From the NCBI GenBank assembly GCA_025360005.1, contig JANYDA010000028.1, positions 1 to 51,414 on the forward strand: a stretch of DNA of 51,414 nucleotides. The letters are read 5' to 3'. Within the stretch, counting starts at the first letter, position 1, and every line of letters begins with the position of its first letter. Shown here one piece after another: positions 9,786 through 51,112 of the stretch. The DNA comes from Fibrobacteria bacterium. GTDB lineage: Bacteria; Fibrobacterota; Fibrobacteria; UBA11236. Below the pieces are notes generated by a model. That model made no database searches. It saw only the letters and a program-made list of their open reading frames with translations, and had not been told where the DNA came from. The translations under genes and the position numbers were made by a program.

Positions 9786-9880
9786 GTCGGGCGTCGGGCG
9801 TCGGGCGTCGGGCGGAGAAACCAGGGAACTCGCGGAGCATGCTCCGGAGCGTTTTTTCCGCCCGACGCCCGACGCCCGAC
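9786..9880. repeat. Heptamer inverted-array element, GC-rich copy (A)
   Basis: Four perfect tandem GTCGGGC units at 9786-9813, a 46-base spacer, and three perfect GCCCGAC units at 9860-9880, the exact inverted complement. The match extends inward: GGAGAAA after the left array against TTTTTCC before the right. The spacer holds a perfect 14-bp palindrome CGGAGCATGCTCCG at 9833-9846. It fills most of the 215-base gap between the unknown exported protein and the methyltransferase. The whole region could fold into one long hairpin. Same architecture as the AT-rich copies further right, with a different heptamer. Confidence 0.85.
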
Positions 9881-9945
9881 GAAACGCCTCTCCAAAGCTC
9901 CGCTCCCCATGGTCGCGCCAACCTTCTCCTACAAGGCTCCCTCCC

Positions 9946-33229: not shown

Positions 33230-35079
33230 AGCTCCCTATCCAACATGCGCAGCAGGTTCTCCGCCGCGTCCAGGGATTCTTTCCAGGCCTTCTCGTCGCG
33301 CGCCCCGCCGCCGAATTGTCCGAAGTCGCACAGTTGCAGCACTTTTTCGTACTCGTTCACCGAAGCCTCCGTGATGCCGCGCTTGCGCAGTTGGACCTTG
33401 GCGTCTTCCAAGGTGAGTCCGCGGAACTCCACGTTCAGCTTATCGCTGGCTAACCCCACCACGGCTTGAGACAGGGCCTTATAGAATTCCTTGGCGTTCT
33501 TCTGCTTGAGCGCCTCGTTGGCCTCCTTGAGACGGCGCTTCAGTTGGGCGCCGGCCAGGGTCTTGCGCTTGAGGGTGGCGTCGCCAGCCAGCTTGCGGCC
33601 GCGGTTACGCACCAGGAAAATCATGGCGAAGGCTACCGGGGAAGGCGGGAAAAGCAGCCAGAACCAGGGATGCTTATAGAGAAAATCATCCTCGCTTTGC
33701 AAAGGTTCGGATCCGCTCTTGATATGGCGGATGTCCGATCCAATGTCCGTGATCTCGCGCTGGCTCATGATGCGGTTCCCGGTGGAGGCGACCTCCTTGC
33801 CCTGCGAAACCGAGATGGCGATGGGCTGGGACTTGGCTTCCGCGTATTCGCGTTTAGCGGGGTCGAAGTAGCTGAAGGCGACGGGGGCCAGGTTGTATTC
33901 GCCTTTGCGATGGGGGACCACTACGTACTTAAAGGTCTTGGTGGTTATCAAGGTGGACCCCTGCACGGCGGTGGCGGTGCTGACTTCCGGATCGAATACC
34001 TCGAATTGGCTCAGGTCCGGGAGTTTGGGCTTGGTGATGGTTTTGGGTTCGCCGTCCCCGCGGATGGTCACCGTCAAGGTCATGGCGTCGCCGGTGGCCA
34101 AAGCCGTTTTATCGGCGGCCGCGGCGAGGGAGTATTCGCCCACAGAGCCGGTGAAATCGGTTGGCGCGCCGGGGGGCAGGGGGCGGACTTCCATGGAAAT
34201 GGGGTTGGCCATGGCGGTCAGATTGACCACGGATCCGCCGCTGAAGAACTGATCGTCGAACATGTCGAACACGGATCCGGACCGGCGGCGTTGGCCGCGG
34301 CTGGCTTGTTGGTAGTCCACCGGGATGCCGGCCAGATCCGCCTTCCCGGCCAGGAGGGGGAAGAGCACGATGCGCACGTCGAAGACGCGCACGTTCTCCC
34401 CGTTCACCTTGACCACCTTGGCCTCCACGTTCTTGTCCAGGCGCTGGAACCAGAATTTCTCGCCGATCAGCTTCTGCAGATCCGGAGGCAGGTTTATTTG
34501 CTGGACGCCTTGGGAAGGGGTGATGCGGAGATTGTAAAGCAATTGCTCGCCGACGAAGGCGGATTTCTTGGAGAGGGAAGGTTGGCTGGTGAGGCCCGCC
34601 TCCTGCTTGACCACGGTAACATTGCCGCTACCCAAATCCTTCTCATAGGCCTTGTAGGCATAGTGGATGGGCCCCACCTGGAACACTCCCGGCTTGGCGG
34701 CGGTTAGGGTATAGATGAAGTTGGTCACGAAATAGGCGCGGCTGGAAATCTTGCCGTTGATGATGCTGGTTTGGGAGCTTTGCGTGTTGCCCGTGGACTT
34801 GGCCACCGTGAACTTTTCCAGCCCCTGCACCTGCGGCCAAGGCAGGCCGTCCACCTTCTCGTCCGAAGTCACCTGCACGGTCAATTGGAATGGCTCGCCC
34901 GTGCCCACCTGGGCGGAAGAAAGGGACGCTTCGGCGGTGACTTCCGCGTAGGCTGTCGATGAAAATGCAAAAGTCAAAAGGCAGAATGCACAGCGCAAAA
35001 TTGAAAACCGGAAGGCCCGTGCCCCGGTTGCGCCGATTCCTTCTCGAAAATTTTTCATTTTGAATTTTGCACTTTGCAT
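33226..35079 (-). CDS. batD: BatD-like exported membrane protein
   Basis: 617 residues: signal peptide (core FSILRCAFCLLTFAFSS, cleavage near TAYAE), a long beta-rich exported part (about 45-470) with the BatD openings EASLSSAQVGTGEPFQLTVQV and later repeats of the same fold (YSLAAAADKTALATGDAMTLTV), one membrane helix near 500 (WLLFPPSPVAFAMIFLV) and a helical cytoplasmic tail. BatD is thought to help assemble the VWA proteins BatA and BatB. The signal-peptide core is encoded by the gene-proximal array of heptamer element E, and the extra N-terminal residues MQSAKFKMKNF by the distal array. The real start could be Met8 (35058). The next gene upstream ends 29 bases away, one of three non-overlapping junctions in this operon. 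Confidence 0.9.
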   Translation of the reverse strand: MQSAKFKMKNFREGIGATGARAFRFSILRCAFCLLTFAFSSTAYAEVTAEASLSSAQVGTGEPFQLTVQVTSDEKVDGLPWPQVQGLEKFTVAKSTGNTQSSQTSIINGKISSRAYFVTNFIYTLTAAKPGVFQVGPIHYAYKAYEKDLGSGNVTVVKQEAGLTSQPSLSKKSAFVGEQLLYNLRITPSQGVQQINLPPDLQKLIGEKFWFQRLDKNVEAKVVKVNGENVRVFDVRIVLFPLLAGKADLAGIPVDYQQASRGQRRRSGSVFDMFDDQFFSGGSVVNLTAMANPISMEVRPLPPGAPTDFTGSVGEYSLAAAADKTALATGDAMTLTVTIRGDGEPKTITKPKLPDLSQFEVFDPEVSTATAVQGSTLITTKTFKYVVVPHRKGEYNLAPVAFSYFDPAKREYAEAKSQPIAISVSQGKEVASTGNRIMSQREITDIGSDIRHIKSGSEPLQSEDDFLYKHPWFWLLFPPSPVAFAMIFLVRNRGRKLAGDATLKRKTLAGAQLKRRLKEANEALKQKNAKEFYKALSQAVVGLASDKLNVEFRGLTLEDAKVQLRKRGITEASVNEYEKVLQLCDFGQFGGGARDEKAWKESLDAAENLLRMLDREL

Positions 35080-35086
35080 TGTGAAT
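34965..35086. repeat. Heptamer inverted-array element, copy E
   Basis: Left array of six 7-bp units at 34965-35006 (ATGCAAA, AGTCAAA, AGGCAGA, ATGCACA, GCGCAAA, ATTGAAA), a 45-base GC-rich spacer, and five inverted units at 35052-35086 (TTTTCAT, TTTGAAT, TTTGCAC, TTTGCAT, TGTGAAT). The spacer has a stem AACCGG at 35006-35011 with CCGGTT at 35024-35029. The element spans the batC-batD gap and the first 39 codons of batD. It is more degenerate than copies B and C. Confidence 0.75.
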
Positions 35087-35108
35087 TCTACCCAATCACC
35101 CCGGCGCG

Positions 35109-36757: not shown

Positions 36758-37779
36758 GAGAAGCGCCCCTCCCATTCCTTGCGGCGCTTACGGCGATCGG
36801 ATATCAGCATCTCCGCCACCAACAGGAACAAGGCGATGGCGAGGGGGATCTGGAAGCGGTCCTCGTACTGGCTCATGCGCTCGGATTCCAGCTCGCGCTT
36901 TTCCATCTTCCCGATCTCCTTAAGCACGTCTTCCAATTCAAAGCGGCCCGGCTCGGCATGGTAATACTTGCCGTTGGTTGCCAGGGCGATTTTCTGCAGG
37001 AGCACCTCGTCCAGGCGGGTGGTGACGATATTGCCCTGGCGATCCTTCTTATAGGACACGTTGCCCTGCTCGTCCTTGAGGGGGATGGGCACGCCGGATG
37101 GCAGGCCGATGCCGACGGTGTAGATGGCGACGCCCATCTTGGCGGCTTCTTCAGCCATCTTCTCCGCCCGTCCGCTATGATCCTCGCCGTCGGTCAGGAG
37201 CACCAGCACGCGGTATTTCCGGTCCTTCGGATCAAAAGCCTTCAGCGAGGTCTCGATGGCGGCCGCAATGTCCGTGCCCGGTGTCTGGATCAGATCGGGT
37301 CCCAGCACGTCCAGGAAAATCTTGAACGCGCCATAATCCATGGTCAAGGGGCATTGCAGGAAAGCCTCGCCCTCGAAGGCTACCAGCGCCACGCGGTCGC
37401 CCGCCAGGCGATCGACGAACTTGCCGATTTCCTGCTTGGAGCGGATCATGCGATTGGGTTTGATGTCTTCGGCATACATGGAAAGCGAGACGTCCTGCGC
37501 CACCACCACGTCCAGGCCCTTGCGGCGCATCAGTTCCAGCTTGGTGCCGAATTGCGGCCGGGCCAGGGCCAGCACGGCGAAAAAGGCGACCAGCAGCAGC
37601 AGGAGGGCCTTGAGCGCCTGGCGCCCGCGCGAAATGCCGTCGGTCATGCGCTTGAGAATTTCCACTTGGGCGAAACGGGCCAGGGTGCGGCTTTTCTTGC
37701 GGTAGGCATAGATAAAGAATCCCGCCAGCAGGGGAATGGACCAAAACAGCCAGAACATTTGCGGCGATGCGAATCTCAT
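36754..37779 (-). CDS. batB: BatB-like membrane VWA protein
   Basis: 341 residues. Two N-terminal membrane helices (about 8-26 and 56-73) flank a basic loop; then a VWA domain from about residue 88 (LDVVVAQDVSLSM), and a last helix near the C-terminus (FQIPLAIALFLLVAEMLI). The MIDAS motif D96xSxS is complete, and LVLLTDGEDHSG gives the later metal-site residues, so it can bind a divalent metal and a partner. The segment LALARPQFG before the VWA domain is a signature of Bat/DUF58-linked VWA proteins. It is paired with the upstream BatA, with an ATGA overlap on both sides. In the MoxR model the AAA+ ATPase acts on such VWA proteins. Confidence 0.9.
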   Translation of the reverse strand: MRFASPQMFWLFWSIPLLAGFFIYAYRKKSRTLARFAQVEILKRMTDGISRGRQALKALLLLLVAFFAVLALARPQFGTKLELMRRKGLDVVVAQDVSLSMYAEDIKPNRMIRSKQEIGKFVDRLAGDRVALVAFEGEAFLQCPLTMDYGAFKIFLDVLGPDLIQTPGTDIAAAIETSLKAFDPKDRKYRVLVLLTDGEDHSGRAEKMAEEAAKMGVAIYTVGIGLPSGVPIPLKDEQGNVSYKKDRQGNIVTTRLDEVLLQKIALATNGKYYHAEPGRFELEDVLKEIGKMEKRELESERMSQYEDRFQIPLAIALFLLVAEMLISDRRKRRKEWEGRFS

Positions 37780-38774
37780 GGGATTTTCATGAACCTCGTA
37801 TTGGCCAAGGCCGTTTCCAGGAGCAGGATCAGCAGGGCGATGATGAGCAGGTTGCGGAACAGTTCGTGATATCTGTAATAGCTGGTGGTCTTGACCTCGG
37901 TTTTTTCCAACTTGTCGATATCGTTATAGATGCCTTCCAGAGCCTTGGCGTCCTGGGCCCGGTACCATTTGCCTCCCGTGAGGCCGGCGATGGATTGCAG
38001 CATGGGCATATCCACGTCCGTCTTGACGCTCACGATGCGCTTGCCGAACATGGGATCCTCTATTTCCATGGGCTGCTCGCCCTCCTTGCCCACGCCGATG
38101 GCGTAGATCTTGATGCCCAGCGCCTTGGCGGCCTTGGCGGCCGTGACCGGGTCCACCTCGCCGGAATTGTTGGCGCCATCGGTCAGGAGGATGATGACCT
38201 TGCTCTTGGCGCCGGAAAGGCGCAGACGATTGGTGGCATTGAGCAGTGCGGTGCCGATGGCGGTGCCGTCCTCCACCATGCCGAAATTCACCTGCCGCAG
38301 GAACTGCACCAGGATCCCGTAGTCCAGCGTCAACGGGCATTGCGTGAAGCTTTTGCCGGAGAAGATGACCAGGCCGATGCGATCGTGCTGCCGGCCGAGC
38401 ACGAAATTCTCGATCACCTGTTTGGCGACGAACAAACGGTTTTGCGGTTTCAAATCCATGGTTCGCATGGATCCGGAAATGTCCAGCGCCAGCATGATGT
38501 CGATGCCATTGGTGGTCACGTCCTCGATGGCCTCCCCGTATTGCGGCCGCGCCAGCGCGATGCACATCAGGGAGATGGCCAATAGGCGCAAGGCCAGCAG
38601 CATGTGGCGGGCGCGGTAGGCCATGCTGTGCGGTACGCGTTTGATGATGGCCAGGGAGGGGAAACGGATGCTCGCCTTGCGGCGTTGGTTCTTGCGGAAA
38701 TAATCCCAGGCCAGGAAAGGCACCGCGGCCAGTCCCGCAAGAAAATACGGATTCTGGAAATGGGGCAGGCTCAT
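37776..38774 (-). CDS. batA: BatA-like membrane VWA protein
   Basis: 332 residues, with the same plan as the next gene: N-terminal helices (about 10-24 and 57-73), IALARPQYG, then a VWA domain with a perfect MIDAS DISGSM at 98-103 and VIILLTDGANNSGE later, and a C-terminal membrane helix (LLIIALLILLLETALA). The VWA surface should face the periplasm or cytoplasm depending on the first helices; in published models of Bat proteins it is periplasmic. The ATG at 38774 overlaps the upstream stop as ATGA and is preferred to the Met three codons earlier. The two VWA proteins differ in the residue after the first MIDAS Ser (G in this one, L in BatB), so they are likely non-equivalent halves of a dimer. 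Confidence 0.92.
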   Translation of the reverse strand: MSLPHFQNPYFLAGLAAVPFLAWDYFRKNQRRKASIRFPSLAIIKRVPHSMAYRARHMLLALRLLAISLMCIALARPQYGEAIEDVTTNGIDIMLALDISGSMRTMDLKPQNRLFVAKQVIENFVLGRQHDRIGLVIFSGKSFTQCPLTLDYGILVQFLRQVNFGMVEDGTAIGTALLNATNRLRLSGAKSKVIILLTDGANNSGEVDPVTAAKAAKALGIKIYAIGVGKEGEQPMEIEDPMFGKRIVSVKTDVDMPMLQSIAGLTGGKWYRAQDAKALEGIYNDIDKLEKTEVKTTSYYRYHELFRNLLIIALLILLLETALANTRFMKIP

Positions 38775-40024
38775 GCCGTCCATCCCTTGCCACCGGCTCC
38801 GTTACCGTTGCTATTGCCGCCGTTTCCACCATTGCTTCCGGATCCGGGTCCGCCCGGCTTCGCGTCGCCTGGATTAGGATTCTCCGGTTCGTGGCCGTGC
38901 CCGCCTTGCGTATATCCGGGTCCCGGTCCGGCGGTCCCAGGAGATTTCCCTTTACCGGCCGGTTTTCCGGCTGGATTTCCGGCTGGATTTCCGGCGGGTT
39001 TGCCCGCCCCGGATCCGGCTTTCAGGGCGGCGGCGCTGGCGACCGCATTGGCCGCGTTAGCTTTGCCCTTCAGCGGTTTCTTGGGGACGATGGGCGCGGC
39101 ATCGGCTATGCCTTGGCCCGGCAGGCTGCCTTCGGTTTCCTTAGGCCTGGTCTGGCGCAGGAATCCTTCCGTTTTGGCGATGAGGTCCTGGGCCCCGCTT
39201 TCCAACAACAAAGCGCCCGCGAATTTGATCAGGTCGGTGTCCGCGCAGAATTCCCCCAGCCATTGCTTCTGGGCCAGAGTAACCGGCAAGCTACGGGCCT
39301 TTTCCAGGAATTCAGCCGTGGTCGATTCCAGGGAATCCGTGCCGAAGCGGCGGTCCAGGTAGCGGCGCAGGGCTTCCGAAAGCAGGAAGCAGAATTCCCG
39401 CGAACGGTTCTGACGGATAAGCGCCAGGTCCTTGAGCTCTCCCAGTTTGACCATGGCTTCCTCGAAAGGCGGCAGGGCCGGCTTGGCGGCCTTGGGGACG
39501 GGCGGTCGGCGGAAGCGTTTCCAAAGCAGCCAGGCAGCGATCAACACGGCCGCCGCGGCCAATCCATAGGCCAGCCAGGGCGCCCCGGATTTGACTTCCG
39601 CCAGGGTGGCGATGTCGGCGATATCCTTTACCGTTTCCGGGGAGGTGCGGACGACGTTGATCTCGATGGGCTGGGTATAATAGCCGGTCGCCGCGGTGTC
39701 GGCCCCATGCCGATACAGGATTACCTGGGGAGGAATGGTGTACTTGCCAACCGTATAGGTCGACAAATCGAAATGCCAGGTTTGGATCTTGAGCTTGCCG
39801 GCATCCTTGGGTTCCCCGGCCTGGTAATCCTTGACCTCGAAGGATCCCAGGTTGCCCAGCACGGAAGGAAGCTCCAGCCGGCCATCGGCGGGAAAGACCA
39901 CCTTGATCTCGTACTGGATGCGATCGCCGATGGTGATTTCCGAATGATCGACCTGGGACGAGATGTCCAATGACCCCTGCGCCCGGGACGCTGCCGCGGC
40001 GCTATCCTGCGTCACTGCGTTCAT
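38771..40024 (-). CDS. BatD-related membrane protein with disordered tail
   Basis: 417 residues. The N-terminal 130 residues are a beta-rich domain resembling the BatD exported fold (SLDISSQVDHSEITIGDRIQYEIKV in the 18-45 range). One membrane helix follows (WLAYGLAAAAVLIAAWLLW, about 149-167) with RFRR directly after it, then a helical cytoplasmic domain (FCFLLSEALRRYLDRRFG) and a Gly/Pro/Asn-rich tail with 12-bp DNA repeats coding PAGN/PAGK. No signal peptide is present, which is odd because the first domain should lie outside the membrane. The ATG overlaps the upstream stop (ATGA) and no earlier in-frame start exists. It is one of three proteins of this type in the operon. The function is unknown; it may be an adaptor for the VWA pair. 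Confidence 0.8.
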   Translation of the reverse strand: MNAVTQDSAAAASRAQGSLDISSQVDHSEITIGDRIQYEIKVVFPADGRLELPSVLGNLGSFEVKDYQAGEPKDAGKLKIQTWHFDLSTYTVGKYTIPPQVILYRHGADTAATGYYTQPIEINVVRTSPETVKDIADIATLAEVKSGAPWLAYGLAAAAVLIAAWLLWKRFRRPPVPKAAKPALPPFEEAMVKLGELKDLALIRQNRSREFCFLLSEALRRYLDRRFGTDSLESTTAEFLEKARSLPVTLAQKQWLGEFCADTDLIKFAGALLLESGAQDLIAKTEGFLRQTRPKETEGSLPGQGIADAAPIVPKKPLKGKANAANAVASAAALKAGSGAGKPAGNPAGNPAGKPAGKGKSPGTAGPGPGYTQGGHGHEPENPNPGDAKPGGPGSGSNGGNGGNSNGNGAGGKGWTA

Positions 40025-40980
40025 TTGGCGGCGTCGGCTCCGGTCCCGGCGGAAGCGCCGGGAGAGAAGAATCGCACCTTGGCGGTTTGCAGCAGGCGCT
40101 CCACGTACTTCTGGTATTCCGCGCCCTGCTTCTCGCGCACCCAGTCCGCCTGCGCGCGGGGCGCCAGCTTCTCAAAAGTCGCGTTGGAATCCGCTCCTTG
40201 CAGGTAGCGCGCCTTGTTGGCCTCGAAATAATACTTGATGTCGTTCCCGCTGGGAGGCTGGATCTTGATCTCCTCCATCAGCCCCGCCTGGGTGAGGATC
40301 TGGTTCTCCGCCTGCCCGATGCGTTGCTTGATCTCCGGCTTGTCCGCGATGCCTTTGCGGCGGGCCGCATCCGCGATCAGGATTTGCGCCACGTATTCGC
40401 GCACCAGTTGGTTCAGCTCCAAGGGCGCTTCCGGCAGCTTTCCGACCATGCCGGCGATTTCGCCCAGGGTGATCTTGCGGCCGTCCAGATCCGCCACCAC
40501 CGTCCCGCTCCCGGCCGCCTTGGTCGTGTCCGGGTTGAAGTCCGTGAGGCGCGAACGCGCCTGGGTGGCGTCCACGCTGCGGCCCATTCCCTCCAGGCAG
40601 GCCACCATGCGCTTGCCCAGCTGGTTCTCGAAAGTCTTATCCGGGTACAGCGCCTTGATCACGGCGTATTTGGCCAGCGCGCCCTTGGGATCGGAAAGGT
40701 TTTCCTGGTAGATGACGCCCATCTGGTAGAGCACGTTGGGCACGTCGTCCTGTTCGATGGCGGAAGACTTCAGGTAATCCTGGTACATGTCGATGGCCTC
40801 GCGGTACAACTGACGTTCGAAAAGCGCGGTAGCGGCCGCGCGGTATTGTTCGCGGGTGAAGGAAGAGCGCGCGGAGTCGCAGGCGGTGAATAGCAGTGCG
40901 AAGAGGAGGAATTTCGCAAATTGAAAATTGCAAATTGAAAATCGCAAAATGGAACGCCTTCGGCTTGAAATCGAATTCAT
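40021..40980 (-). CDS. Lipoprotein with TPR and SurA-N-like regions
   Basis: 319 residues from the ATG at 40980. The signal peptide is of lipoprotein type: SSRRRS, then RFSICNFQFAKFLLFALL and the lipobox FTAC with Cys34 followed by Asp, so it may stay in the inner membrane. TPR-like helices follow (YRAAATALFERQLYREAIDMY, VLYQMGVIYQENLSDPKGAL). From about 145 (DLDGRKITLGEIAGMVGKL) the sequence resembles the chaperone domain of SurA/PpiC proteins, but no parvulin catalytic domain is visible. The first part of the signal-peptide core is encoded by the proximal array of heptamer element B. Other in-frame Met codons at 40992 and 41034 would place more of the element in the protein. It overlaps the next gene (ATGA) and is presumed to be a periplasmic chaperone or scaffold. 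Confidence 0.8.
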   Translation of the reverse strand: MNSISSRRRSILRFSICNFQFAKFLLFALLFTACDSARSSFTREQYRAAATALFERQLYREAIDMYQDYLKSSAIEQDDVPNVLYQMGVIYQENLSDPKGALAKYAVIKALYPDKTFENQLGKRMVACLEGMGRSVDATQARSRLTDFNPDTTKAAGSGTVVADLDGRKITLGEIAGMVGKLPEAPLELNQLVREYVAQILIADAARRKGIADKPEIKQRIGQAENQILTQAGLMEEIKIQPPSGNDIKYYFEANKARYLQGADSNATFEKLAPRAQADWVREKQGAEYQKYVERLLQTAKVRFFSPGASAGTGADAAK

Positions 40981-41055
40981 GCACAGCACCATTTTGCCCC
41001 GGGAGATCCCGGGTTTGCAATTTTCAATTTGCAATTTTCAATTTGCAATTTGCAA
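40914..41055. repeat. Heptamer inverted-array element, copy B
   Basis: Five units at 40914-40948 (TCGCAAA, TTGAAAA, TTGCAAA, TTGAAAA, TCGCAAA), a 65-base spacer, and six units at 41014-41055 (TTTGCAA, TTTTCAA, TTTGCAA, TTTTCAA, TTTGCAA, TTTGCAA), the inverted complement. The spacer has GCAAAATGG at 40944-40952 pairing with CCATTTTGC at 40989-40997, and a hairpin CCCGGG-AGAT-CCCGGG at 40998-41013 next to the right array. It fills the gap between the DUF58 stop (41072) and the lipoprotein gene and runs into that gene's coding region. This is the clearest copy. Confidence 0.93.
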
Positions 41056-41071
41056 AATCTTGTTTTCATCC

Positions 41072-41959
41072 TCACCTTATTTTCGCCGCGCGCTTCCGGA
41101 AATATTCCAACAACGGATGGATGGTGTCATCGTACTTCGGCTGGATCACCACTTCCACGAAATCGATTTGCAGCTTGCGGAACAGGCGCTTGAGCTGGGT
41201 GCTTTCTTTCTGGGCTTCCTTCTTGAAGGTCTTGCGGAAGTCCTCGTCGCTGGTGTCCACCAGGATGATCTCGCCGGTTTCCGCGTCTTCCAGCTCGATG
41301 AATCCCACGTCCGGGATTTCCCGTTCGCGCGGATCCCATACCGTGATGGCCACACCCTCGTGCCTGCGCGCCAGCAGTTTGATAGGCTTCTCGAAATCGC
41401 CGGTGGCGAAATCGGAAACCACGAACACTACGGCCCGGCGCGTCAGGATCCGGTTCAGGTATTCCAGGGCCAGCGACAGGTTGGTGCCTCTTTCCTTGGG
41501 CTTGAAATACAGGAGCTCGCGGATGACGCGCAGCACATGCTTACGGCCTTTCTTGGGAGGGATGTACATCTCCACCTGCGAGGTGAAGATGAGCAAGCCA
41601 ACGCGATCGTTGTTCTTGGTGGCTGAAAACGCCAGCAGAGCGCTGATGGTGGCCATCACCTCGCCCTTCATCTCCGATTGGCTGCCGAATTCCCCGGAGG
41701 AGCTGGCGTCCACCACCAGGATCACGGTGAGCTCGCGCTCTTCCACGAACTTCTTGATATACGGCGTACCGTGGCGCGCGGTGACGTTCCAATCGATGGA
41801 ACGGATCTCGTCCCCGGGCACGTATTCCCGCACCTCGGCGAACTCCATGCCCTGGCCCTTGAAAGACGAGGAATACGCCCCCGACAACACCGAGTTGACG
41901 ATGCCGGTGGTACGGATCTCGATCTGGTGGACTTTTTTTAGGACTTCCTTCGGTATCAT
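41072..41959 (-). CDS. DUF58 VWA-like protein
   Basis: 295 residues, soluble, gene typically following moxR. The DUF58 core is REYVPGDEIRSIDWNVTAR near residue 45, then a VWA-like fold starting ILVVDASSSGEFGSQ with a degenerate MIDAS (DASSS), and VFVVSDFATGDFEKP later. The C-terminal helix region ends with FRKLQIDFVEVVIQPKYDD. In other bacteria MoxR and DUF58 proteins act together as an AAA+/adaptor pair on VWA substrates. The ATG at 41959 begins MIPKEVLKKVHQIEIRTTG, the usual start; an upstream in-frame ATG at 42004 would add residues encoded by element C and is rejected because the family starts at MIPKE. It is separated from moxR by 157 bases that contain element C. Confidence 0.93.
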   Translation of the reverse strand: MIPKEVLKKVHQIEIRTTGIVNSVLSGAYSSSFKGQGMEFAEVREYVPGDEIRSIDWNVTARHGTPYIKKFVEERELTVILVVDASSSGEFGSQSEMKGEVMATISALLAFSATKNNDRVGLLIFTSQVEMYIPPKKGRKHVLRVIRELLYFKPKERGTNLSLALEYLNRILTRRAVVFVVSDFATGDFEKPIKLLARRHEGVAITVWDPREREIPDVGFIELEDAETGEIILVDTSDEDFRKTFKKEAQKESTQLKRLFRKLQIDFVEVVIQPKYDDTIHPLLEYFRKRAAKIR

Positions 41960-41970
41960 TGCGCTGGTTT

Positions 41971-42107
41971 TTGCAAATTGAAAATTGAAAATTGCAATAT
42001 GCAAATTGAAAATCGCCGGCCGCTCGCGAACTCAACGCGAAGCGGGACCGGTGCGGAATCGGTTCCGCCAATTTTCAATTCGCAATTTTCAATTCGATAT
42101 TGCAAAA
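41971..42107. repeat. Heptamer inverted-array element, copy C
   Basis: Six units at 41971-42012 (TTGCAAA, TTGAAAA, TTGAAAA, TTGCAAT, ATGCAAA, TTGAAAA), a 59-base GC-rich spacer, and five inverted units from 42072 (TTTTCAA, TTCGCAA, TTTTCAA, TTCGATA, TTGCAAA). Next to the right array is a perfect hairpin GCGGAA-TCGG-TTCCGC at 42053-42068. It occupies almost the entire moxR-DUF58 gap, ending ten bases from the moxR stop and twelve from the DUF58 start. Confidence 0.93.
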
Positions 42108-42116
42108 GTCTTCCTC

Positions 42117-43118
42117 TTAAGGCACTTCAATCGAGTCGAATATCCTCTGCACCACATTCTCCGCCTTCACTTCCTCCGCCTCCGCCTCGTAGCTCAGGAT
42201 CAGGCGGTGCTTCATCACGTCCATGCCGATGGACTTGACGTCCTCGGGGGTGACGTAGCCGCGGCCGCGGATGAGCGCATGCGCCTTGGACGCCTTCGCC
42301 AGGCTGATGCTCGTGCGCGGGGAGGCGCCGTATTCGATCAGGCCCGCCACGTCCTTGATGCCGTGGCCGAGCGGATCGCGCGTGGCGGCCACCAGGTTGA
42401 TGATATAGTCCATGATCTTATCGTCCATGAACACCTCGCCCACGGTGTTGCGCGCGCGCAGGATGTCTTCTTCGGTGGCCATCTTCTCCGCGGTATGCAG
42501 GCCCTTGCCGGAGACCATGTTCACGATGGCCTTCTCCTCTTCCTTGGTGGGATAGGTCAGGGTGACCTTGAGCATGAAGCGATCGATCTGCGCTTCCGGC
42601 AGGGGATAGGTGCCTTCCTGCTCCACCGGGTTCTGGGTGGCCATCACCAGGAACAGCGGCGGCAGGGAATAGGTGGTGTCGCCGATGGTGACCTGCTTTT
42701 CCTGCATGGCCTCCAGCAGCGCGGATTGCACCTTGGAGGGCGCGCGGTTGATTTCGTCCGCCAGGATGATGTTGGCGAAGATGGGGCCGCGCTTGACGTG
42801 GAAGTCGCCCGTCTTGGGATTGAAGATCAAGGTACCGATCAAATCGGCCGGCAACAGATCGGGCGTGAACTGGATGCGGTTGAAGGCGCAGTTGATGGCG
42901 TTGGCCAACGCCTTGACCGCCGTGGTCTTGGCCAGGCCGGGCACGCCTTCCAGCAGCACGTGGCCGTCCGCCAACAGGCCTATCAGCAGTTTCTCCAACA
43001 TGTTCTTCTGGCCGATGACGGTACGGCCCACTTCGTCCAGGATCTTCTGGATGAAGGCGCCTTCCCGCTTCACTTTTTCCGTAATGGCTTGGATGTCCAC
43101 CTTGGTCGCGCTACTCAT
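42117..43118 (-). CDS. moxR: MoxR-family AAA+ ATPase
   Basis: 333-residue ATPase, probably a cytoplasmic hexamer that works as a chaperone on VWA proteins. Walker A GVPGLAKT is at residues 58-65, Walker B is ILADEINRAPSKVQSALLEAM (near 120-140), sensor 1 lies in LVMATQNPVEQEGTYPLPEAQ, the arginine-finger region in DRFMLKV, and sensor 2 in GASPRTSISLAKASKA. These are the MoxR subfamily signatures and the length is standard. The start is ATG at 43118 with GGGAG nine bases ahead; an ATG two codons earlier at 43124 is possible. It overlaps the end of the upstream gene. It is the motor of the operon, and DUF58, BatA and BatB are likely clients. Confidence 0.96.
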   Translation of the reverse strand: MSSATKVDIQAITEKVKREGAFIQKILDEVGRTVIGQKNMLEKLLIGLLADGHVLLEGVPGLAKTTAVKALANAINCAFNRIQFTPDLLPADLIGTLIFNPKTGDFHVKRGPIFANIILADEINRAPSKVQSALLEAMQEKQVTIGDTTYSLPPLFLVMATQNPVEQEGTYPLPEAQIDRFMLKVTLTYPTKEEEKAIVNMVSGKGLHTAEKMATEEDILRARNTVGEVFMDDKIMDYIINLVAATRDPLGHGIKDVAGLIEYGASPRTSISLAKASKAHALIRGRGYVTPEDVKSIGMDVMKHRLILSYEAEAEEVKAENVVQRIFDSIEVP

Positions 43119-44211
43119 GATCATCGTCTCCCGTCATCTTAAGGCATTTCCTGAAGGTCCGAAAAGCGTCCTGCAATTCATGGGGTTCTTTGTATCCCCC
43201 GGCGAAGCGGGCATGCCGGAACAAATCCTTGAGCTTCAGCCAATCTTCCCCGCTGCCGCCCGTAGTTGCATTGCCGCCGGCTTCGGCCGATGTTCCGTTG
43301 CGTGCCAGATAGGTTTCCAACAACGGATCGAAACGGACCTGAACGCCCGCGTTGGCGGCCTCCCCGAGCTCATCCCTGAGAAAGCGCACGGTCAGGGATT
43401 CCATTTCGGACAGGATGGCCTTGCTCGCGTCCGGGGAATTCTGCGCCGAGCGCAGCCGGCTCTTCAGAGCCGCCACTTCCGGTTTTAGATCCTCGCGCTT
43501 GCGGATCTTCGCCGCGCGTTTGCGCAAGGTCAACTTGAACGCGGCATAGGCCAGCGCGCAGGCCGCTCCCAATCCCAGCAGGCCCAACAGCAGCTTGAAC
43601 CACAGCATGTCCAGGACATGTACCGGCGCCGGTCCGATGTCTACCAGCGCGGTGGGGATGAAGATGGCCTCTTCCTGTTTGGAAAGCCCGGTCAGGTAGC
43701 GCACCTTCAGCGAGCCGGCCTTGCCGGTACCCTGGACCATGGCCCGCAGGCGGAAGATGAATTCCGTATGGTTCTTGACGGACTGGCCCGCCGCCACCTT
43801 CTTGTGCATGGTTGCCTGGCCGATGATCTTGAAGCCGGGGAAATCCAGGCTGTCCGGCGCCAGCACAAAGACGGGTACCTGCGTGTCTTCCCACTCCACC
43901 TGCACCACATAATCCAGCGAATCCCCCACGCGTGGATTGGCAGCGGAGAAGGCGCCCTGGGAGGAAAGCTTCACGGCCTCTTTGGGCACGGGAGGCATGG
44001 CTGCGATCGCGTTGGAATCATTGGCCGGCGCGGGAGGCGGGGCCAGGAACGGATCCCGGCCTCCGGACGGGGATGAGTCGATGGGCGAGACGGAGGTTTG
44101 CGGAGTTTGGGCATGCGCCAGCAGGCCTGGAGCCGACGGAGCGCCGAACAGCGCCAGGTTCAGGAGCAGGGTAGCGATGCGGGGGAGGGAACTATCCTTG
44201 CGTGCGCACAT
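43111..44211 (-). CDS. Exported BatD-like membrane protein, first gene of the operon
   Basis: 366 residues. The signal peptide ends near residue 34 (GLLAHAQ), then a Pro/Ser/Ala-rich linker (35-80), a beta-rich exported domain (about 85-195, FSAANPRVGDSLDYVVQVEW), one membrane helix (about 205-230, LLLGLLGLGAACALAYAAF), and a basic helical cytoplasmic domain ending near the C-terminus with DAFRTFRKCLKMTGDDDHE. The layout matches the BatD-related gene at 38771, so two such adaptors flank the MoxR/DUF58 section. It may link MoxR to the exported parts of the complex. The start lacks a close ribosome-binding site: GGAGG is 17 bases away, so the true start is uncertain. It is divergent from recR, with about 100 bases between them. 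Confidence 0.8.
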   Translation of the reverse strand: MCARKDSSLPRIATLLLNLALFGAPSAPGLLAHAQTPQTSVSPIDSSPSGGRDPFLAPPPAPANDSNAIAAMPPVPKEAVKLSSQGAFSAANPRVGDSLDYVVQVEWEDTQVPVFVLAPDSLDFPGFKIIGQATMHKKVAAGQSVKNHTEFIFRLRAMVQGTGKAGSLKVRYLTGLSKQEEAIFIPTALVDIGPAPVHVLDMLWFKLLLGLLGLGAACALAYAAFKLTLRKRAAKIRKREDLKPEVAALKSRLRSAQNSPDASKAILSEMESLTVRFLRDELGEAANAGVQVRFDPLLETYLARNGTSAEAGGNATTGGSGEDWLKLKDLFRHARFAGGYKEPHELQDAFRTFRKCLKMTGDDDHE

Positions 44212-45986: not shown

Positions 45987-46808
45987 ATGACCCGCATTTT
46001 GACGTGGATAGGGCTGCGCTCTCGCAGATCCTACGTAGGCCAATTGATGGAATTGGGGTTGCAGGCCTCCTGGTGCGCCGTGCATAAGGCCGGCAATCGC
46101 AAGCAGGGTTTGGATCAGCTCATCACCCAGATTTATTTCACCGGCGTGGAGGCCATCCCCCTGGTGGCGTTTCTGGCGCTCATCATCGGCAGCGCCACCA
46201 TCCTGCAAGCTTCAACCGTGATGCCCAAGATCGGGGCGGGCGATTATTTCGGCAATGTCATGGTGCTGGTGGTGGTGCGCGAAGTGGGTCCCTTGTTCAC
46301 GGCCTTCCTGGTAGCCGGACGCACCGGTTCCGCGCTGTCCACTTACCTGGGGAACATGAAGGTGCAGCAGGAGATAGACGCGCTCAAGACCATGGGCGTG
46401 GACCCGGTGCGTTACCTGGTCTATCCCAGCTTCGCCGCAACGGTCATTTCCATGTTCTGCCTTACCGTCATCTTCAACCTGGTGGCCATCTTCGGCGGCT
46501 ACCTGGTGGTCAAACTGCTTTCGCTTTTCGTGTCCGATTTTTCCGAAGTGCAACTCTCGCTTTCCTTGTTCATGGAGCGCATCCTCGCCTCCATGGGCAT
46601 CATAGACGGGGTGCTGGGCATCGTGAAGCCGGTGTTCTTCGGCATACTGGTCTCCGTCATCGCCTGCTACCACGGCATCAATGTGTCCAACGACATCCGG
46701 GAAGTGCCCAAGGCCACCACCAAGGGCGTGGTGAACTCCTTCGTGTGCATCACCATTTTCGATACCCTGTTCGCGCTGCCGTTCCTGGCCAAGCTGGGTT
46801 TCCTATGA
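45987..46808 (+). CDS. mlaE: MlaE/YrbE-family lipid ABC permease
   Basis: Permease of the MCE phospholipid transport system, 273 residues with about five membrane helices, in the inner membrane. The family core is visible: IYFTGVEAIPLVAFLALIIG near residue 50, VVREVGPLFTAFLVAGRTGSA near 92 (the coupling-helix segment), and EIDALKTMGVDPVRYLVYPSF near 128. With MlaF and MlaD it should move phospholipid between inner and outer membranes, which indicates a diderm cell. mlaF overlaps by four bases. The ATG has only AGGT as a possible ribosome-binding site. No mlaB or mlaC gene is present in the window. Confidence 0.95.
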   Translation: MTRILTWIGLRSRRSYVGQLMELGLQASWCAVHKAGNRKQGLDQLITQIYFTGVEAIPLVAFLALIIGSATILQASTVMPKIGAGDYFGNVMVLVVVREVGPLFTAFLVAGRTGSALSTYLGNMKVQQEIDALKTMGVDPVRYLVYPSFAATVISMFCLTVIFNLVAIFGGYLVVKLLSLFVSDFSEVQLSLSLFMERILASMGIIDGVLGIVKPVFFGILVSVIACYHGINVSNDIREVPKATTKGVVNSFVCITIFDTLFALPFLAKLGFL

Positions 46809-47572
46809 GCGTGATCGCTTCCGTCCATAATCTGCGCTTCACCTATCCCGGCCAGGAAACCGTGCTGCGGCGCGTGAACTTCCATGTGCTGCCGGGACAG
46901 ATCCTGGTGATTTGCGGTCTGTCGGGCCAAGGCAAGAGTACCTTGCTGCGTTTGCTGATCGGATTGGAAAAGCCGGACGCGGGCATGATCCGGCTGTTGG
47001 GCAAGGACATCGCCACTCTCAATGAGGTGGAGTTCAACGATCTCAAGCGGAGCGTCGGTTTCGTGTTCCAGAGTTCGGCATTAATCAGCACCAAGACGAT
47101 TTTCGAGAACGTGGCGCTTCCTCTGCTCTACCATAACGTAGGCGACGAGGAGGAAATCCGCTCCCGCGTGGACAACGCCCTGGAGATGCTGCTCATCAAG
47201 GAATTCCAGCACCAATATCCCGCATCGGTCAGCCTGGGCATCCTCAAGCGCGCCGCCGTGGCCCGCGCCATGATCATGCGCCCCAAGCTCATCCTCATGG
47301 ACGAACCCACGGCCGGCCTGGACCGCATCAGCCGCGCCGTGCTGCTGGCGCTCATCGCCAATATCCGCCGCATCAACCATGTGTCCATGATCCTGGTGAC
47401 CCACGATCTGCTCGCCGCCCGCGAGCTGGGCGGCGAAATCGGCGTGTTGAAGGAAGGCGAGCTGCTGCAACCCATGAACTTCGAGCAATTGAAGAATTGC
47501 CAGGACTCCTTCGTCGAATTCCTGTTCCGCCAGCTGGAGCAGGAGGCCGCCATGACGGAGAAGCCGGGATGA
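46805..47572 (+). CDS. mlaF: MlaF-family ABC ATPase with unusual signature motif
   Basis: ATPase of the MCE lipid transporter, 255 residues. Walker A GLSGQGKST is at 38-46, the Q-loop FQSSAL near 89, Walker B LILMDEP at 162-168, the D-loop TAGLD, and the H-loop histidine is 200. The ABC signature, normally LSGGM-K/R-R in MlaF, reads VSLGILKRAAVARA at 142-155: the first glycine is replaced by leucine while the basic pair and ARA follow normally. Since Walker A, Walker B and the H-loop are intact, the protein should still hydrolyse ATP. The ATG at 46805 overlaps mlaE (ATGA); a longer frame from 46745 is in mlaE and rejected. The stop overlaps mlaD. Confidence 0.93.
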   Translation: MSVIASVHNLRFTYPGQETVLRRVNFHVLPGQILVICGLSGQGKSTLLRLLIGLEKPDAGMIRLLGKDIATLNEVEFNDLKRSVGFVFQSSALISTKTIFENVALPLLYHNVGDEEEIRSRVDNALEMLLIKEFQHQYPASVSLGILKRAAVARAMIMRPKLILMDEPTAGLDRISRAVLLALIANIRRINHVSMILVTHDLLAARELGGEIGVLKEGELLQPMNFEQLKNCQDSFVEFLFRQLEQEAAMTEKPG

Positions 47573-48519
47573 AGTTCGAGCTCCATCGGCACCGCAACCT
47601 GCTGGCCGGTTTTTTCGTGTCCACCGCGGTGATAACCTTCGTGGTATCCCTGATCGTGCTCTTCCACAAGAAGGGCGTGTTTGAATTGCAATACACCCTG
47701 AGCGCCGTATTCGAGAACGGCGTGGGCCTGAGGCCGGGCGCGGACGTGCTCTTCAACGGCGTGAAGATCGGCCGCGTGGAATCGGTGAACCTGCTCGGCC
47801 ACGGCGGCATCGACGCCTCCTCCGGCAAGGTGGTTCTGGACCTGGTCATCGATCGCAAGTACCAGGATTTCATCACCAGCCGTTCCGTCGCCTTCGCATT
47901 GCGGGACAAGAACCTGGTTTCCGATCGCGTGGTGAATATCGAGACGCTGGGATTGGGCGGGACCATCCTCAGGGGGGGAGACACCTTGATGGTCTCCAAC
48001 TCGCGCGACATCGAATCCGTGCTGAGCGGCCTGACCAACCTGATGGGCAAGATGGATCAGTTGATCAACAGCATCGACCAGATTGTGGTGAAGGCGAAGG
48101 ATCCCAATACCACGGTGGGGGCCATGCTGGGCTCGCGGGATTTATACGACCGCCTGCTGGCCGGCGTCAACAGCGTGGATACGGCGGTGGGGCAGGGCAG
48201 GTTGGTGCTGGGCCGGGTCCAGCTCTTGACCGACACCTTGCACGTGGCGCTGGGAGGCATCCTGGCGCGCGCGGATTCCACATCCGGCAAATTGGTGAGG
48301 ACGGCGGAACAGGCCGAGAAGCTGAGCGTGCACGCCAACGTGCTGGCCGACCAAGGCGAAACCATCCTGCGCCGCATGGATCAGATCATGCTGCAAGGCT
48401 CCGGCAAGCTCGATCAGGCCGGGGATCTGATGGACGCGGTTTCTAGCCTCTGGTTCATCAAAGGCCGGATGGTCAAGAAAGGGGATTACCCGGTTTTGCT
48501 GAATGAGGCGGGACCGTGA
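47569..48519 (+). CDS. mlaD: MlaD-like MCE-domain protein
   Basis: Membrane-anchored MCE protein, 316 residues, the substrate-binding ring of the lipid transporter. One N-terminal helix is at about 15-37 (NLLAGFFVSTAVITFVVSLI), then the MCE domain at about 43-135 (YTLSAVFENGVGLRPGADVLFNGVKIGRVESV, cut here into its usual start). The rest is helical with heptad-like spacing (LTNLMGKMDQLINSIDQIV and QAEKLSVHANVLADQGETI), probably a coiled coil reaching across the periplasm, as in longer MCE proteins. The ATG at 47569 overlaps the mlaF stop. The stop overlaps a GTG of the next gene. A longer frame from 47497 is a shadow of mlaF. Confidence 0.94.
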   Translation: MKFELHRHRNLLAGFFVSTAVITFVVSLIVLFHKKGVFELQYTLSAVFENGVGLRPGADVLFNGVKIGRVESVNLLGHGGIDASSGKVVLDLVIDRKYQDFITSRSVAFALRDKNLVSDRVVNIETLGLGGTILRGGDTLMVSNSRDIESVLSGLTNLMGKMDQLINSIDQIVVKAKDPNTTVGAMLGSRDLYDRLLAGVNSVDTAVGQGRLVLGRVQLLTDTLHVALGGILARADSTSGKLVRTAEQAEKLSVHANVLADQGETILRRMDQIMLQGSGKLDQAGDLMDAVSSLWFIKGRMVKKGDYPVLLNEAGP

Positions 48520-49541
48520 AGGCGAAGAGAGATTTTTTGCGAATTGAAAATTGCAAATCGATGGAAAAAATCAAGGGACCTCCGGCCTCCTTGAAGAGCC
48601 GCAGAAGTCTTTCCCGCATTTGTCTCTTCATTTTTCAATTTGCGATTTTCAATTTGCAATTTGCAATGCCGCGCGCGGCGCGCGCGGACGACTCTCCCAA
48701 GTATGCCGAGCGTGGGCTCTCCGCTTACTATGCGGGCAAATACGATCTGGCGCGCATGTTTTTTTCCAAGGCCCTGCAAGACGCGGTACTCAAGGGCAAG
48801 GACGATTGGATCGCCAAGGCCACCTTCAATCTGGTGGATCTGGAATTGGAATCCGATGACGAGATGGAGGCCGCCCGCCTTCTGGAAGGCGTCAACACCC
48901 GTGATCGCGGCAGCAAGTCCGTGTGGCTCTGGAAGCGGTCCCAATTGGCATCCCTCCAGCGGCATTATCCTTTGGCGGTGGAACTGGTAGACTCCGCTCT
49001 GGATCTGGCCAAGGGCGATGCGGCCAAGGAAACCTCCATGGGGCTCGATCGCATGCGTTACCTCATCCAGTCGCGGGATCCCCAGGAATGGGCGTCCCGA
49101 TATGAGGTTTTCCGCAAGGGATTGGGCCGGGACCGGGCTACGCCCCTCGACGCTATGGCGGCCATGGCCCGCAAGGATTATGCGCGGGCCGACACGTTGT
49201 GGCATGAGGCGATGGGGTATTACCGCGAACACGGCCGGTTGGCCAAGGTGGCCGGTTGCCTCAACCAATCCGCCATCTGCCTGTTCTCGCAGGGCCGCAG
49301 GGCGGAAGCGGTGGAAACCAACGCCCGCGCCGTCGCCGTCTTCGGGGAACTGGGATTGGAAATCCCGGGATTGAAAGCGCAGGCGCTGCGGCTTTTGCTC
49401 GTCCAGGACGATCGGGAGCTTGCCAAATTGCGCCAGGATATGGATCTTGTCGGACAACGTTTCAGCGGCTTCGACCTGCAAGGGATCCTGGATGAGTATT
49501 CGCAAAATATGCGCGACGGTCGTTCTGGCATGGGGCATTAG
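48516..49541 (+). CDS. Exported helical-repeat (TPR-like) protein
   Basis: 341 residues from a GTG that overlaps the mlaD stop (GTGA). The N-terminal 60 residues include a basic stretch, a hydrophobic core FIFQFAIFNLQFA and a likely cleavage site after ARA near residue 58. The whole of heptamer element D lies in codons 8-50, and its right array encodes that core. The mature part has TPR-like helical pairs (GLSAYYAGKYDLARMFFSKAL, ATFNLVDLELESDDEMEAARL, GCLNQSAICLFSQGRRAEAVE). It is not assigned to a family. It is probably periplasmic, translated with mlaD and with the propeller gene that overlaps it by 50 bases. Initiation may instead use the Met at codon 16 (48561), after which the signal is shorter. 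Confidence 0.75.
   Translation: MKAKRDFLRIENCKSMEKIKGPPASLKSRRSLSRICLFIFQFAIFNLQFAMPRAARADDSPKYAERGLSAYYAGKYDLARMFFSKALQDAVLKGKDDWIAKATFNLVDLELESDDEMEAARLLEGVNTRDRGSKSVWLWKRSQLASLQRHYPLAVELVDSALDLAKGDAAKETSMGLDRMRYLIQSRDPQEWASRYEVFRKGLGRDRATPLDAMAAMARKDYARADTLWHEAMGYYREHGRLAKVAGCLNQSAICLFSQGRRAEAVETNARAVAVFGELGLEIPGLKAQALRLLLVQDDRELAKLRQDMDLVGQRFSGFDLQGILDEYSQNMRDGRSGMGH
48537..48666. repeat. Heptamer inverted-array element, copy D, inside a coding region
   Basis: Three units at 48537-48557 (TTGCGAA, TTGAAAA, TTGCAAA), a 74-base spacer, and five inverted units at 48632-48666 (TTTTCAA, TTTGCGA, TTTTCAA, TTTGCAA, TTTGCAA). The spacer has TCAAGG at 48571-48576 pairing with CCTTGA at 48589-48594. 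All of it is in frame inside the first 51 codons of the exported TPR-like protein. Confidence 0.88.
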
Positions 49542-50970
49542 CCCGGCCGCCAATCTCCAGTCACAGGACATCCTCTTCTTCTCCACCCACAAAAATCCCA
49601 CCCAGATAGTGGGGGATTCCAAGAACGCTTTTATCCTGACCGAGGGCGGCGTGCTTATGTACGATTACCGCCGGTCCGCGTGGGTGGACAACCTGGTTGC
49701 CGGCAACGAGATAAAATCGATACGCTACTCACAAATGCGCTCCAAGCTATACGTGCTGCTGACCGGGGGGCGCACCCTGGAGTACAACCCCGTGTTCCGG
49801 CGCTTCACGGACGCATCCCTGGAGGATTACCAGGCCGCCAACGACGTGGGTTCCACCGCGGACGTGAACGGCCTGACCCTGGACGGAGACAATTTCTTCC
49901 TGGGGGACGCAGTCCGCGATAAATACATGCGCAGGGCGCCCATCGCGCTGTCGAAGGTTTTCGACTACGACAACCTCTGGGTGCTGACCGCGGGGCTGGG
50001 GCAATTCTACGGGTCCCTGCGCCGGAAATCCGCCTCCGCATTCTGGTTCGGCCTGGATTATCCCGCCACTTCCGTCATCTACCCGGAGGGCGCCAATATC
50101 TGGTTCGGTTCCTGCCGCAGCGATTATCCGGCCACCGAGGTTTCCCTGGGCGTGGCGTCGCAAAGCAACGGGGCCCTGGTCAAGGCCAAGTCGGACCTGA
50201 ACGGCTGGAAGGTGTATCCCGCCCAGTTGGAATACGGCTTCGGGGACGGTTGTGTGAGGGATGTAGCGGTTTGGCGCGATTATGTCTGGCTGGCCACCAA
50301 CAAGGGCCTGGTACGGCATGATCCCCGCTCGGGCCAGTTCCGCAATTACAATCACCTGATGGGGAGCACGGATGTCCGCGTCACCTCCCTGCACGTGCAC
50401 GAGAATGAGCTTTTCGTGGGTACGGAACGGGGCGTGGGCTACCTGGAGGATCCGGACAAGGAAGACATCAAGACCGTGGGGGGCGAGTTGCCGGTGCAAG
50501 GCGGCGTGCAGGTGAATGAGCTCACCTCCAAGGATCATGACCTCTGGGCCGCCACGCGGCTGGGCCTATGGGTGTTCCAGAAGGGCGCATGGAAGACGTT
50601 GAACAGCGTCTCCGGCAAGGACGTTCCGGAAGCCACTTTGGTCAACGTTTCTTCGATGGCTTACCACGATACCTCCATGTATTGGGTCTACGAGAACCGC
50701 GTAATGGTGAAGCCGCGCAAGCAATCGCAAAGGGTTTTGCTGGAACGCGATCATCCTTTCCGGCTGCGCTTCGACGGGGATATGCTCTACATCGCCTTCA
50801 CGACCGGGATCACCGCCTACGATACCCGCAAGGGGCTCTGGTCGGATTTCCGTTTGGAAGACGGGATTCCGGGCACGCGCGTGCTGAGCATGGCCCTCTC
50901 GGGCGGCAAGCTCTGGATGGGTACGGACGCGGGAGTGGAGCGCATCACGGTACGGCCCTACCTCCCCTAG
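49492..50970 (+). CDS. Exported beta-propeller protein
   Basis: 492 residues. The signal peptide MSIRKICATVVLAWGISPAA is followed by repeated blades of the two-component-regulator (Reg_prop) or ligand-sensor propeller type: VWLATNKGLVRHDPRSGQF, ELFVGTERGVGYL, DLWAATRLGLWVFQKGAW, LYIAFTTGITAYDTRKGLW and KLWMGTDAGVERI. Each has the pattern of W/L-x-G/A-T-x-x-G-hydrophobic. It ends at the propeller, with no kinase or sensor helix, so it probably binds a ligand or protein at the cell surface. The ATG at 49492 lies within the previous gene; an upstream in-frame start at 49420 adds sequence that does not look like a signal peptide and is rejected. Co-transcription with the Mla block is likely; a role in it is unproven. 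Confidence 0.85.
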   Translation: MSIRKICATVVLAWGISPAANLQSQDILFFSTHKNPTQIVGDSKNAFILTEGGVLMYDYRRSAWVDNLVAGNEIKSIRYSQMRSKLYVLLTGGRTLEYNPVFRRFTDASLEDYQAANDVGSTADVNGLTLDGDNFFLGDAVRDKYMRRAPIALSKVFDYDNLWVLTAGLGQFYGSLRRKSASAFWFGLDYPATSVIYPEGANIWFGSCRSDYPATEVSLGVASQSNGALVKAKSDLNGWKVYPAQLEYGFGDGCVRDVAVWRDYVWLATNKGLVRHDPRSGQFRNYNHLMGSTDVRVTSLHVHENELFVGTERGVGYLEDPDKEDIKTVGGELPVQGGVQVNELTSKDHDLWAATRLGLWVFQKGAWKTLNSVSGKDVPEATLVNVSSMAYHDTSMYWVYENRVMVKPRKQSQRVLLERDHPFRLRFDGDMLYIAFTTGITAYDTRKGLWSDFRLEDGIPGTRVLSMALSGGKLWMGTDAGVERITVRPYLP

Positions 50971-50984
50971 GGGTCGGCGGCCCA

Positions 50985-51112
50985 AAAAGTCAAAAGGAAA
51001 AAGGTAATACCCTAAACCCGCTTTAATGGCGGATTTGCCCGATGCATCCGGGTCCAGAGCCCTCTCCCTCTTCAATTTTGCACTTTGCATTTCGCCTTTT
51101 TCATTTTCTTAC
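50985..51112. repeat. Heptamer inverted-array element, copy F (degenerate)
   Basis: A left array starting at 50985 (AAAAGTC, AAAAGGA, AAAAGGT), a spacer of about 60 bases with a CCCG/CGGG stem at 51038-51052, and a right array at 51071-51112 with TTGCACT, TTGCATT, TCGCCTT and TTTCATT in 7-bp register. The units resemble those of copy E (TTTGCAC, TTTGCAT, and TTTTGAC on the complement). It follows the propeller stop by 14 bases. The arms are poorer complements than in B and C. Confidence 0.6.

Follow-up and report, generated by a model that had tools for sequence, protein, structure and literature searches.

A heptamer-array repeat as the inferred signal-peptide core of a TPR protein encoded after mlaD in a Fibrobacterota genus

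Introduction

Can a copy of a small genomic repeat serve as the core of a signal peptide and, if so, did it create an export signal or take the place of one? The question is raised by a TPR-containing gene that follows mlaD, the first codons of which are occupied by a repeat element. The window (the whole stretch of DNA that was analysed, 51,414 nt) is contained as contig C36 in a 4.98-Mb draft genome (G000) from an uncultured genus; the Fibrobacteres MAGs RYN_348 and RYN_349 are near relatives according to a contig scan. All genomes of the comparison are fragmented drafts of 65-340 contigs. The gene order is mlaE, mlaF, mlaD, TPR gene, with a MlaE domain, a MlaD domain and an ABC ATPase found. 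This mla operon (45987-50970) lies near a Bat-type operon (33226-44211), and the same stretch holds three predicted exported-protein genes with array-coded signal peptides, namely those of BatD, a lipoprotein and the TPR protein.

The element at the start of the TPR gene

The gene and the parts of its element are the following.

48516..49541, + strand: TPR-containing gene with an inferred exported product (ORF; TPR_12, E=4e-9), downstream of mlaD
48537..48561, + strand: left arm TTGCGAATTGAAAATTGCAAATCGA, an in-frame part of the putative n-region, ending at the alternative start ATG 48561
48562..48624, + strand: GC-rich core of the element, in frame as ...KSRRSLSRIC; most other elements are without this core
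48625..48667, + strand: right heptamer array TTTTCAATTTGCGATTTTCAATTTGCAATTTGCAA, with codons 48627-48665 giving the predicted h-region
48666..48686, + strand: c-region MPRAARA, with an inferred signal-peptidase site before D at 48687

The element is 131 nt long (48537-48667) and consists of the GC-rich core between two inverted arrays of 7-nt units. An inverted-repeat search pairs its arms, 48537-48561 with 48635-48659, at 88% complementarity over 25 nt, and TRF reports a 7/14-nt periodicity in the right array (48632-48667). The GC content is 40% for the element and 26% for the right array, against 61% for the window. An earlier note on this DNA had described a complete element lying in frame within the first 51 codons after mlaD; arms, periodicity and open frame were all found again. 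It had also made the upstream start overlap the mlaD stop, which is indeed so: GTG 48516-48518 overlaps TGA 48517-48519, and the TPR frame is open to 49541. The only Rfam match, to MIR6457, is weak (29.9 bits against a gathering score of 140) and is put down to chance.

The note's further reading of the right array as a hydrophobic core followed by ARA also holds, since codons 48627-48665 translate as FIFQFAIFNLQFA, followed by MPRAARA and DD. ATG 48666 is codon 51 of the gene; AARA and DD come after it, and the mature protein would begin with DDSPKYAERG. The n/h-region criterion of a Sec signal peptide is met by KSRRSLSR followed by ICLFIFQFAIFNLQFA, with a KD of 2.15 inside the native range of 1.72-3.13, and the (-3,-1) criterion is met by A-R-A before D. 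The maximal 12-aa hydropathy of the right array is 2.15 in the coding frame versus 1.54 and 1.21 in the other two. As far as sequence can decide it, the right array is confirmed as the h-region of a signal peptide ending in ARA before DD, export of the protein being inferred.

Counted from GTG 48516, this signal peptide has 57 residues, which is long. A start at ATG 48561 would give a more normal 42-residue signal peptide; the element would then supply start codon, n-region and h-region together, GTG 48516 being a relic. An element-borne start has a parallel in the window, as the in-frame stop of the lipoprotein gene described below forces one there. All five orthologous copies, however, keep a GTG or ATG that overlaps the mlaD stop, an arrangement that fits translational coupling, and a Shine-Dalgarno-like motif is absent before 48561. 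The ATG 48561 start is thus possible but unlikely. Both starts yield an identical predicted mature protein, and sequence alone cannot choose between them.

Orthologues of the TPR gene

Five orthologous copies were compared, in four congeneric genomes: G002 (two copies), G003, G004 and G005. Each has a GTG or ATG start overlapping the mlaD stop, and in each a signal peptide, as judged by sequence, ends immediately before DDSPKYAERG. An array is absent, and the signal peptide ordinary, in G003, in G004 and in the copy of G002 that lies on contig C28. In the G002 copy on contig C77, the core RSSILHFAFCILTFSLSTRVYA comes from an independent array of another flavour (TTTTGCA units), without left arm. 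The G005 copy contains a third, GC-rich flavour with inverted GTCGGGC units; its reading lengthens the n-region by a hydrophilic stretch, and the h-region that follows is ordinary. Three flavours are therefore found at this one gene in three genomes. The two G002 copies of the mlaD end and TPR gene (L008 on C28 and L012 on C77) are diverged (81% DNA identity) and lie at contig ends; one with and one without array, they possibly stem from a tandem duplication of the operon.

Homologous DNA is shared by the window and all relatives up to the mlaD stop (48519) and again from 48668-48683 onwards; the 24 nt directly after the element, CCGCGCGCGGCGCGCGCGGACGAC, are common to the window and the element-free G004. 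Since the element-free relatives have a native core, and given this break in homology, the array is inferred to have replaced the native h-region while the cleavage region was kept. The earlier note had the element entering behind an old start codon without breaking the frame. The frame is intact, as it said, but the native h-region is gone, so that the element replaced sequence and was not simply added.

The same note had named orthologues that begin at ATG 48666 or later as cytoplasmic proteins as the finding that would refute it. None of the five copies does so; all have the mlaD-overlapping start and a signal peptide. This bears directly on the possibility that the array is untranslated and that the gene begins at ATG 48666 or later with a cytoplasmic product. 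An in-frame ATG is present there, but no orthologue begins at it and all have an upstream signal peptide joined to matching mature sequence, which leaves this possibility hardly tenable. The array did not convert a cytoplasmic protein into an exported one; it is a native core that was replaced, export again being inferred. For the mature TPR protein, dN/dS is about 0.11-0.20 in pairs of the window copy with the other copies, a range from which purifying selection on it is inferred.

The repeat family

With up to 3 mismatches allowed, the array family has 145 matches in the 4.98-Mb genome, against 0 for a reversed control pattern. A scan of the phylum (168 genomes) identifies it as a feature of the genus, the few other genomes with hits having at most 1-2, near control level. 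A literature search returned no paper on these repeats in Fibrobacterota. The elements are ~90-230 nt long and built alike: two arrays of a 7-nt unit face in opposite directions, and the core between them is mostly unrelated from element to element. This inverted-array plan is common to flavour A, a second AT flavour (B), a GC flavour (C) and a GGTTTAA flavour, the latter in one intergenic gap of G005. Flavour C has 173 matches in G002, 81 in G005, 7 in G000 and none in the other three congeners, and each genome seems to favour its own heptamer. The GTCGGGC elements of the flavour-C family have ends near GCATATCGT.

The two arms of one element are a better match than arms of different elements (P=2e-4), which suggests that such a pair arose or is corrected together. 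Most cores are dissimilar, unlike those of L046, L079, L095, L097, L104 and L113, among which there are a few similar pairs; such elements may form a younger sub-family. The elements meet the MITE criterion of terminal inverted repeats, a length under about 600 bp and no transposase gene. They do not meet that of a conserved internal sequence, the cores being mostly unrelated with only few similar pairs.

Apart from the element of the TPR gene, the window contains the following.

34959..35079, - strand: predicted BatD signal peptide from a flavour-B element, MQSAKFKMK...FRFSILRCAFCLLTFAFSSTAYA, then EVTAEA after the cut (BatD, E=1.6e-33)
40907..41056, - strand: predicted lipoprotein signal peptide from a flavour-A element, ...SILRFSICNFQFAKFLLFALLFTA, then CDS after the cut
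41970..42099, no strand assigned: intergenic element of the family of 48537-48667, between moxR and a DUF58 gene
51075..51107, + strand: single flavour-B array, matching the array of the G002 C77 signal peptide
9786..9881, no strand assigned: GC-rich flavour-C element (inverted GTCGGGC arrays), intergenic, of the flavour of the G005 TPR orthologue

The moxR-DUF58 gap measures 160 nt in the window versus 24-50 nt in four element-free relatives, but the flanks of the occupied and empty sites are too diverged for a target-site duplication to be seen. This gap holds flavour A in the window, a GGTTTAA/TTAAACC heptamer element in G005 (L118) and neither in four relatives, which suggests a recurrent insertion site or repeated turnover.

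Array-coded signal peptides across the genus

From ORFs running out of arrays and from the N-termini of orthologues, 21 array-coded signal peptides were collected, in 12 gene families and four genomes. This census is a lower bound, as it rests on pattern searches and selected stretches and not on full gene calls. The families are the TPR gene, BatD, the lipoprotein, an outer-membrane efflux protein (OEP), an M23 peptidase, a carboxypeptidase-regulatory-domain protein, an Ig-domain protein, a PQQ/TPR protein, a second TPR protein, a polysaccharide-export protein and two unassigned genes. Element-free orthologues with an ordinary signal peptide at the matching place exist in all five families checked (TPR, lipoprotein, BatD, OEP and M23). 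For BatD, those of G002, G003, G005 and G001 have ordinary signal peptides. The lipoprotein-gene element is absent from the same four genomes and present in G004; the start codon of this gene also lies inside the element, because there is an in-frame stop near the element's outer end.

At the M23 gene, G002 and G001 have flavour A, G004 has a decayed A, G000 has B and G005 has C in the n-region; G003 lacks an element. Set against the species tree, ((G000,G002),G004) versus ((G005,G003),G001), this pattern of flavours requires repeated gain or turnover.

Why heptamer arrays encode h-regions

As 7 and 3 have no common factor, the frame in which a heptamer array is read makes no difference to its peptide cycle, and translation of ideal arrays indeed gives a single cyclic peptide in all three frames. 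The cycle of the T-rich strand is hydrophobic and free of stops (flavour A, FSICNFQFAIFNLQ; flavour B, FCTLHFALCILHFA). Read from the other strand, both flavours give lysine-rich cycles; that of flavour B has no stop, that of flavour A one in every 14 codons. Period 7 and a hydrophobic T-rich strand together mean that a copy falling over a signal peptide gives an h-region in any frame. Flavour C reads as RRPTPDA or GVGRRAS, and is for this reason found in n-regions or 5' of starts and not as h-region. An unmutated flavour-A array makes only a weak h-region, however, with a KD12 of 1.2 and Q and N among its residues.

The array signal peptides come close to native ones in hydropathy (mean KD12 2.26 versus 2.47), and none of the 21 breaks the (-3,-1) or lipobox rule. 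Their coding frames are more hydrophobic than the other frames of the same array (2.04 versus 1.36; 18 of the 21 cases; P=2e-5) and than arrays elsewhere (2.04 versus 1.34; P=3e-8). These P values are partly circular, because the 21 cases were chosen by eye before the statistics. Sense arrays outside signal peptides have a mean KD12 of 1.34 against 0.10 for random DNA, and 0% of antisense readings reach a KD12 of 1.8 or more.

The element might instead act primarily as an RNA or DNA hairpin affecting expression of the downstream gene, its peptide reading being incidental. In favour of this, its arms form a 22-bp RNA stem, arms match better within elements than between them, and many copies lie just 5' of start codons, as TAACTGA heptamers do (MacGregor 2015, PMC4679880). 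Yet the fold z-score is only -1.75, the G002 C77 copy still encodes an h-region with a right array alone, and the frame dependence of hydrophobicity points to selection on the peptide. A hairpin as the main function thus appears improbable.

Placement in the genome and best explanation

None of 80 elements lies inside a gene body, versus 51% of random positions in those same loci under an identical test (P=1.6e-25); only these 80 had enough flank for the test. In G000, where 58 elements were detected, about 8 coincide with signal peptides. By a rough estimate, not from annotation, signal peptides make up ~1% and intergenic DNA ~12% of the genome, so that ~9% of tolerated landings would be expected in signal peptides.

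The evidence is best explained, in our view very probably, by a copy of a genus-specific inverted-array repeat that replaced the native h-region of the TPR gene and now serves as its predicted signal-peptide core, export and cleavage being inferred. The repeat family would have spread through the genus by a route that is unidentified, and copies in gene bodies would have been purged, leaving those in intergenic gaps and at the N-termini of exported proteins. A T-rich array over a signal peptide would supply the h-region in whatever frame it is read, and often the n-region and start codon too, the opposite arm giving a lysine-rich stretch. In the TPR gene, an array copy presumably took the place of the native h-region, with selection perhaps retaining (or choosing) whichever frame was more hydrophobic. 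The Sec pathway and signal peptidase I would still use the native ARA before DD.

Within this explanation, signal-peptide cores and intergenic DNA may simply be the only harmless sites, with neither benefit nor recruitment, and we lean, if only somewhat, towards this form of it. The empty gene bodies, the rough agreement between the expected ~9% and the count in G000, and the hydrophobicity of sense arrays wherever they lie all fit tolerance. The extra hydrophobicity of coding frames is not expected from tolerance by itself, though purifying selection acting later on an accepted array would give it. Active recruitment is not shown, because signal peptides receive about the share expected, on the rough estimate, if they are as tolerant as intergenic DNA. 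It is doubtful that the 7-nt repeat is a frame-independent portable signal peptide, made up of basic arm, start codon and hydrophobic arm, that repeatedly and adaptively replaces native ones throughout the genus and could make cytoplasmic proteins into exported ones.

Significance

The predicted TPR case is not an isolated curiosity, the genus having about 21 such cases in all. What had been a single Yersinia anecdote becomes a genus-wide, repeated natural experiment on the loss, replacement and refinement of signal peptides, with a simple mechanism: when the repeat period is coprime to three, the frame of insertion is irrelevant. If the inferred export is right, repeat DNA of a genome can take on a new role as a functional part of a protein. 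How small the sequence requirements of a bacterial export signal are becomes testable as well. The arrays also carry a warning, as gene callers may trim AT-rich N-termini and so mislabel exported proteins as cytoplasmic.

Comparison with known systems

Random sequences reportedly act as secretion signals in the yeast invertase work of Kaiser and colleagues (1987). The likeness is that any sufficiently hydrophobic stretch can serve as signal core; that work was a laboratory screen, whereas the Fibrobacterota arrays are a natural repeat family.

Rickettsia palindromic elements are short palindromic repeats found in frame inside coding genes (PMC10969869), a likeness shared by the arrays. They have a conserved sequence and peptide and occur inside many unrelated proteins, in contrast to the Fibrobacterota arrays, which in coding DNA were seen only at signal peptides; with 0/80 inside gene bodies and cores that are not conserved, the criterion for such elements is not met. 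TAACTGA heptamer direct repeats of Beggiatoaceae, Cyanobacteria and Bacteroidetes are mostly intergenic before starts, and one orientation is stop-free with the 7-aa cycle LSVISYQ; they were interpreted as a regulator site (MacGregor 2015, PMC4679880). They resemble the arrays in their 7-nt tandem units near starts and in the stop-free 7-aa cycle of one orientation, but are direct repeats of one fixed unit, without inverted arms and core, and with no signal-peptide role reported.

The direct and closest precedent is Yersinia RU-2, a 168-bp repeat that forms residues 1-30 of the predicted signal peptide of YPO1552, homologues of which in other genera have unrelated signal peptides (Delihas 2007, PMC2759123). 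Both are small, mostly intergenic repeats fused in frame to an N-terminus where they form a predicted signal peptide. RU-2 offers one main example and one conserved 168-bp sequence, whereas the Fibrobacterota arrays extend to 12 families, four genomes and at least 3 flavours, with unrelated cores and repeated independent replacement at one gene; length, structure and host phylum differ as well. Beyond these precedents, the novelty lies in the scale, in the existence of several flavours, in repeated replacement at a single locus and in the simple period-7 mechanism.
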